44,982 nucleotides of DNA from positions 1-44,982 of the forward strand of contig JAOAGP010000029.1 of NCBI GenBank assembly GCA_026415695.1, in the 5' to 3' direction. A model generated the notes under the pieces. That model saw only the letters and a program-made list of their open reading frames with translations. It ran no database searches and had not been told where the DNA came from. The first letter of the stretch is position 1. Every line of letters starts with the position of its first letter. The DNA is from Thermodesulfovibrionales bacterium (GTDB lineage: Bacteria; Nitrospirota; Thermodesulfovibrionia; Thermodesulfovibrionales; Dissulfurispiraceae). This document shows, piece after piece, positions 42,282-43,140 of this stretch. The position numbers and the translations under genes were made by a program.

Positions 42282-42563
42282 ATGAGGATTCCACGCAGTT
42301 GGTTGCCCATAATTTCAAAGAAAATAATACATAATATTGAGCGAAAAAACCTTGCATCATTAAATGTGCCAAAACAACAGGCAATTGAGGAAACAGAGAG
42401 GATACTATTTGATGAGTTGTCAGTTGAGGATAGGCTAAATGAGGAAGTCAGGGAGTTATTAAAGAAATTTGAATCAGAGATTGAGAGAAATAGGCTTGAC
42501 TACAGGAAACTCTTTGAGATGACAAAAAACAAACTCGTAAAGGAGAGAAACCTCGTTTTATGA
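42282..42563 (+). CDS. DUF507 family protein, first of two
   Basis: The 93-residue protein has the DUF507 layout: a basic amphipathic N-terminus (RIPRSWLPIISKKIIHNIERK), an acidic middle (ERILFDELSVEDRLNEEVRELLKKFESEIER) and a C-terminal helix ending KNKLVKERNLVL. The sequence shows no catalytic motif, cysteine or membrane segment. The family has no assigned function, and is usually found as two adjacent copies. Its end overlaps the second copy by 4 bp. It sits right after rpsR, so it is made together with ribosomal proteins. Confidence 0.85.
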   Translation: MRIPRSWLPIISKKIIHNIERKNLASLNVPKQQAIEETERILFDELSVEDRLNEEVRELLKKFESEIERNRLDYRKLFEMTKNKLVKERNLVL

Positions 42564-42838
42564 TGCTATCTGATGAAAAGGTCAGGCACCTTACCCACCA
42601 ATTATACAAATCCTTGGTGGAAAAACAGATAATAACCCCTATTGAGAACGAGGAAAAGATTCGCAAGGAGATAAAGAGGACGATTAGGGAGGAGTTAAGA
42701 TTAGGTGAAGACATTGATGAGGCTGTCAGGAAAAAGATTGAATCCCTATCCAAAAAGCCAGTAGAAGGCAGTCAAGAATGGGATATCCTATACAGAAAGT
42801 ATTTTGCTGAAGAAGAGTCGCGCAGGGGAAGGAGATAG
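42560..42838 (+). CDS. DUF507 family protein, second of two
   Basis: The 92-residue protein is a paralogue of the preceding one, with the same acidic helical middle (ENEEKIRKEIKRTIREELRLGEDIDEAVRKKIESL) and a basic start (KVRHLTHQLYKSLVEK). It ends with a basic tail (AEEESRRGRR). It overlaps the first copy by 4 bp (ATGA). Its last codons contain the AAGGAG that appears to serve the following HNH gene. A heterodimer of the two is plausible because they are translated together, but this is inference. Confidence 0.85.
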   Translation: MMLSDEKVRHLTHQLYKSLVEKQIITPIENEEKIRKEIKRTIREELRLGEDIDEAVRKKIESLSKKPVEGSQEWDILYRKYFAEEESRRGRR

Positions 42839-42840
42839 GT

Positions 42841-43140
42841 ATTTTTATTACTCAGGTTGACTCATCATTTATAAATAAACAAAAGGCAATTGCAAGACAG
42901 TTAAGACAATCTGGTTGGTGGAAGAGGAAGGTTTCAACTGGAAGGTGTTACTATTGTAACAGTAGTGTATCGCCAAAGGATCTAACCATGGATCATATAG
43001 TGCCTATTATAAGGGGTGGTCAAACAGTAAAGTCAAATCTTGTGCCAGCATGTAAAGATTGTAATAACAAGAAAAAATACCTCCTTCCGTCTGAATGGCA
43101 AGAGTATCTTCAAACACTCAATCATATCAATGAAGATTGA
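42841..43140 (+). CDS. HNH endonuclease, apparently starting at ATT
   Basis: In this frame the sequence encodes 99 residues ending at the TGA at 43138. The HNH/zinc motif is complete: C36 and C39 (CYYC), D51-H52 (MDHIVP), G59-G60, N66 and C71/C74-N75 (CKDCNN). Between the preceding in-frame stop (about 42803) and C36 there is no ATG, GTG or TTG. The only in-frame ATG is at residue 50, past the first cysteine pair. An AAGGAG at 42829-42834 lies 6 bases before the ATT at 42841, which I take as the start; ATA at 42835 is possible. The DUF507 stop precedes it by 2 bases, allowing coupled re-initiation. HNH proteins of this kind nick or cut DNA; the target is unknown. Confidence 0.75.
   Translation: MFITQVDSSFINKQKAIARQLRQSGWWKRKVSTGRCYYCNSSVSPKDLTMDHIVPIIRGGQTVKSNLVPACKDCNNKKKYLLPSEWQEYLQTLNHINED

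Follow-up and report, generated by a model that had tools for sequence, protein, structure and literature searches.

Genes that start with ATT are very rare and are known from infC and pcnB in E. coli. Initiation factor IF3 keeps start codons of the AUN type in check. To our knowledge, few genes have a proven non-canonical start, namely infC, pcnB, sigR (GTC), and Borrelia pncA. The start codon of infC is ATT in E. coli and ATC in Streptomyces; infC autoregulates through this codon, and Streptomyces sigR with its GTC start is repressed by IF3 (PMC5472188). In sigR, the non-canonical start (GTC or GTT) and the strong Shine-Dalgarno (SD) sequence are conserved across species, and gene callers mis-annotate the gene (PMC5472188). 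PncA of Borrelia burgdorferi (BBE22) has an experimentally supported AUU start, a truncated public annotation, and a fold that needs the N-terminus (PMC13398362). Among HNH nucleases, Gmet_0936 (Gme HNHE; PDB 4h9d) has been described as a weak Mn-dependent nickase that prefers DNA with abasic sites, and variants of it are toxic in E. coli (PMC3765158).

Here, we analyze a window of 44,982 nucleotides from an uncultured Nitrospirota bacterium (contig JAOAGP010000029.1), in which an earlier note had proposed an HNH endonuclease gene with an ATT start codon. The gene lies 3' of rpsF, ssb, rpsR, and two DUF507 half-genes and 5' of a TrmN-like methyltransferase gene. The features of the region are:

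42282..42563, + strand: DUF507 N-terminal half (Pfam DUF507, 3.5e-14)
42560..42838, + strand: DUF507 C-terminal half, the upstream gene (Pfam DUF507, 3.7e-19); its TAG stop lies 2 nt 5' of the ATT
42829..42834, + strand: Shine-Dalgarno AAGGAG, found by sequence 6 nt 5' of the ATT; duplex of -8.8 kcal/mol with a generic anti-SD
42835..42837, + strand: candidate alternative start, an ATA that directly follows AAGGAG and shares bases with the DUF507 stop (ATAG), with a weaker SD (-6.5); its position is the sole candidate in L014 and L023
42841..42843, + strand: proposed start codon ATT; TTG at the equivalent codon of L022, homology from the next residue, best SD energy and spacing among the AUN candidates
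42841..43140, + strand: HNH endonuclease gene, 99 codons from ATT to TGA (Pfam HNH, alignment to PDB 4h9d, orthologues across the order)
42946..42957, + strand: first zinc pair Cys36 and Cys39 (CYYC), aligned with Cys38/Cys41 of 4h9d
42988..42990, + strand: first canonical start (ATG) in the HNH frame, too late for a working enzyme
42991..42996, + strand: catalytic Asp-His (D51, H52), aligned with D53/H54 of Gmet_0936 (PMC3765158)
43036..43065, + strand: N66, second zinc pair C71/C74, and N75, aligned with N68, Cys73, Cys76, and N77 of Gmet_0936 (PMC3765158)
43137-43883: TrmN-like methyltransferase gene; its start, a TTG without a Shine-Dalgarno, overlaps the HNH stop

DUF507 (182 Pfam positions) is split at 42282-42838 into two overlapping genes that share ATGA at 42560, an arrangement common to most relatives. 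Translational coupling between the DUF507 C-terminal half and HNH is likely, and the methyltransferase gene is probably coupled to HNH in turn.

The full HNH/zinc motif claimed in the earlier note was found. The Pfam HNH model (PF01844) matches with an E-value of 5.9e-14 (52.4 bits against a curated cut-off of 21.4). The closest solved structure is that of Gmet_0936 from Geobacter metallireducens (4h9d; residues 2-94 aligned, E-value 1.3e-35). All four zinc cysteines (C36, C39, C71, C74) and the catalytic residues D51, H52, N66, and N75 are present, corresponding to C38, C41, C73, C76 and D53, H54, N68, N77 of Gmet_0936, a protein of the same fold family (PMC3765158). Homology to relatives reaches back to the residue directly after the ATT, and substitutions relative to them are fewest at codon position 2. 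An orthologue occurs in 163 of the 176 genomes of the order and in 122 of the 126 good ones. The window protein is a full-length relative of Gmet_0936. Mn-dependent nicking and the preference for abasic DNA are known for Gmet_0936, to which the window protein is likened by sequence; the paper on Gmet_0936 is silent on its start codon, whereas the window gene lacks a canonical one (PMC3765158).

The open HNH frame spans 42811-43140 (+), between a TGA at 42808-42810, which the earlier note had placed at about 42803, and the closing TGA at 43138-43140. As claimed, it holds no ATG, GTG, or TTG before the first zinc cysteine, and none up to the ATG at 42988. This ATG is 3' of the cysteine codons at 42946 and 42955, two of the four zinc ligands; it was rejected as the start, for the product would lose C36 and C39. 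Hence, none of the three canonical codons is usable for the conserved HNH N-terminus, and ordinary gene finders would cut the enzyme in half. The 59 codons without a canonical start are the longest such run among the 47 long open frames of the window. The letters before the proposed start read AAGGAG (42829-42834), ATAGGT, and ATT (42841-42843), which confirms the SD six bases before the ATT and places it at proper spacing from an AUN codon. Among 400 random ATT triplets of the window, 0.75% have an anti-SD pairing at least as strong as its -8.8 kcal/mol, where all SD energies refer to a generic 16S tail, as the metagenome-assembled genome (MAG) has no 16S.

HNH loci of relatives were fetched and anchored on the WW motif, giving 192 unique loci. 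At codons -31 to -23 from this motif, 143 loci have ATG, 16 GTG, 5 TTG, and 28 none of these, so that most relatives carry a canonical codon at the equivalent start site. Longer N-termini or divergent ends account for about half of the 28. The remaining such loci together with L040 make up an AUN set of 16: the window, L014, L023, L031, L032, and 11 Desulfobacterota loci (L038, L040, L041, L043, L044, L046, L048, L050, L065, L166, L168). L030, with a possible CTG start, and divergent f3 loci were left out of this set. In L030, which is from a closed genome (G007), the HNH N-terminus is unlike that of its neighbors and no canonical start is nearby, leaving CTG or a distant ATG as candidates. 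Lentisphaerota-type loci (L053, L064, L069, L093, and others) were rejected as AUN starts and not counted, as their proteins begin further upstream, at an ATG that gives a longer N-terminus.

The ATT of the window stands at codon -25 from the WW motif. L022, from the same genus, has TTG exactly at this codon (GGC TTG TTC ATT compared to GGT ATT TTT ATT in the window), and L004, also of this genus, has TTG one codon before it. The ATT is thus not kept within the genus. The alignment of homologues, which the earlier note had proposed as a check, shows that the frame is kept and that AUN starts recur, with TTG in the same-genus relatives and a canonical start in most others. Conservation of the AUN codon is seen in all 11 Desulfobacterota loci and in both species of the sister genus g13 (L014, L023), where an ATA at -27 is the sole start candidate. 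In g13, this ATA overlaps the DUF507 stop as ATAA. Two loci of genus g7 (L031, L032) likewise have ATA at -27, with the nearest canonical codon at least 19 codons further upstream, and their HNH genes probably start at this ATA, overlapping the DUF507 stop as ATAG.

In the Desulfobacterota, all 11 loci have ATT at -26, except for ATC in L043, and GGAG exactly 8 nt before it (GGAG-N8). Seven lack any canonical start, and the frame of L043 opens just five codons 5' of its ATC. The other four contain a chance canonical codon further upstream with an SD energy of -3.4 or weaker, compared to -6.6 to -11.8 for ATT/ATC. Mean pairwise divergence at codon positions 1/2/3 in this clade is flat over the 13 codons before the ATT (0.38/0.45/0.44), 0/0/0.18 at the ATT codon, 0.16/0.15/0.36 over the 18 codons after it, and 0.11/0.09/0.38 thereafter. 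The ATT is thus precisely where conservation takes on a codon-like pattern. At the corresponding site, other families in this Desulfobacterota order have ATG; hence, the ATT there is a feature of one family. These ATT-started copies lie outside the ribosomal operon, with their own leader and a divergent gene upstream, and coupling is therefore not necessary for an ATT start. The setting among ribosomal genes, to which the earlier note appealed, holds for the lineage of the window and not for these copies; the ATT may limit expression, which would suit a dangerous nuclease. At several Desulfobacterota loci, L041 and L043 among them, the ATT-started HNH gene is followed by a gene named from its sequence as aldehyde ferredoxin oxidoreductase-like.

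Two controls bear on these counts. Among the neighboring genes (rpsF, ssb, rpsR, both DUF507 halves, and the methyltransferase gene), 0 of 240 lack a canonical start, compared to 17 of 191 HNH genes under the same rule, 4 of the 17 being longer Lentisphaerota-type proteins. infC served as a positive control: ATA or ATC follows GGAGGT as its start codon in 21 of the 22 relatives that could be read, and infC of the window's own genome (L141, G000:C99:25733-26224, - strand) has ATA behind GGAGGT. ATA or ATC is thus the rule for infC in this order, as opposed to the ATT of E. coli. In the Desulfobacterota genomes, infC starts with ATT, ATC, or ATA. Both lineages therefore evidently make use of AUN initiation, and the HNH and infC starts of these genomes belong to one codon class.

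Like HNH, infC has an AUN start behind a good SD; however, it encodes IF3 itself and autoregulates, whereas HNH would be at most a target (PMC5472188). The likeness to sigR lies in the pairing of a non-canonical start with a strong SD, which in HNH is kept across species of some lineages, and in the expected mis-annotation, but sigR uses GTC or GTT rather than AUN, and IF3 repression is demonstrated for sigR and inferred for HNH (PMC5472188). Borrelia PncA resembles HNH in its AUU start, its truncated annotation, and a fold that depends on the N-terminus, although it is an unrelated enzyme from a single lineage (PMC13398362).

We are fairly confident that the window encodes a real, functional, and vertically kept nuclease of the Gmet_0936 type, on which ribosomes re-initiate at ATT 42841 after translating DUF507. 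The claim of an ATT start is supported by homology down to residue 2, the TTG of L022, the AUN codons of relatives, and the ATA of infC, and this ATT is most likely a real, weak, and coupled start. The alternative of a start at ATA 42835, where ATAG would join the HNH start to the DUF507 stop as in an ATGA overlap, is improbable, though it retains some chance: its position (-27) is that of the sole candidate in L014/L023 and a likely one in L031/L032, and infC of the same genome uses ATA. However, AAGGAG abuts this ATA without spacing, so that the usable SD is -6.5 against -8.8 for the ATT, and in L022 this ATA is absent and the start lies at the position of the ATT. Moreover, the ATA arises from a K/R codon of DUF507 and a TAR stop, and its presence thus needs no role in initiation.

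The ATT codon of the window comes from one MAG, ATG is one base change away, and same-genus relatives have TTG, all of which would fit a sequencing or assembly error hiding a canonical ATG or TTG at 42841. We consider this quite unlikely, as a canonical start is also missing altogether, independently, in two other lineages, for one of them in 7 separate assemblies; AUN is thus biologically possible at the HNH start site. The HNH frame is otherwise intact. Production of the HNH part as a -1 frameshift fusion to DUF507 would draw on the overlap of the two frames (42811-42838), but is very improbable given that in relatives the two genes are separate, HNH having a canonical start beside the DUF507 stop, that no slippery heptamer was seen at the overlap, and that the Desulfobacterota copies lack a preceding gene from which a frameshift could occur. 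A decaying pseudogene, to which the missing canonical start might point, is just as hard to believe with all zinc and catalytic residues and a perfect SD kept and the fewest changes at codon position 2.

In an unconstrained tree, the window HNH groups with the other members of its genus (98/85), apart from the Desulfobacterota clade (100/94), and the start type changes four times. The tree is based on 98 columns and hence weak, and a tree constrained to group the window with the Desulfobacterota clade is not rejected (p-AU 0.52, likelihood 1.84 higher). The window protein is 65-68% identical to the Desulfobacterota clade compared to 59-60% to its own genus. Its operon setting and the -25 position of its start match the genus. 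A single origin by gene transfer from Desulfobacterota goes against the unconstrained tree but is compatible with the constrained one. Whichever tree holds for the window, g13 is a case apart from the Desulfobacterota clade.

For re-initiation at ATT 42841, we propose that ribosomes fresh from DUF507 would terminate at TAG 42836-42838 and be held by AAGGAG, to re-initiate with fMet-tRNA at the ATT 2 nt further on. The rate would be low and set by IF3; with repression as for infC, the nuclease level would follow IF3 activity. Translation of HNH, its low yield, the coupling, and the repression by IF3 are what we infer for this gene. The toxicity of Gmet_0936 variants offers, by analogy, a plausible reason for holding the nuclease at a low level.

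ATT starts are a known phenomenon, while their recurrence within an HNH nuclease family is apparently new and, in the open-access literature searched, apparently undescribed. As a tentative extension, which we hold to be possible rather than probable, a near-core, repair-type HNH may have repeatedly taken AUU, AUC, or AUA in at least two phyla through selection for weak, IF3-gated initiation, forming a small IF3 regulon with infC. If true, recurrent AUN starts where infC shares the codon type would make non-canonical starts a selected control device, and gene callers would truncate or miss enzymes started in this way. With natural TTG, ATT, and ATA versions of one site, the HNH family offers a comparative handle on such starts.
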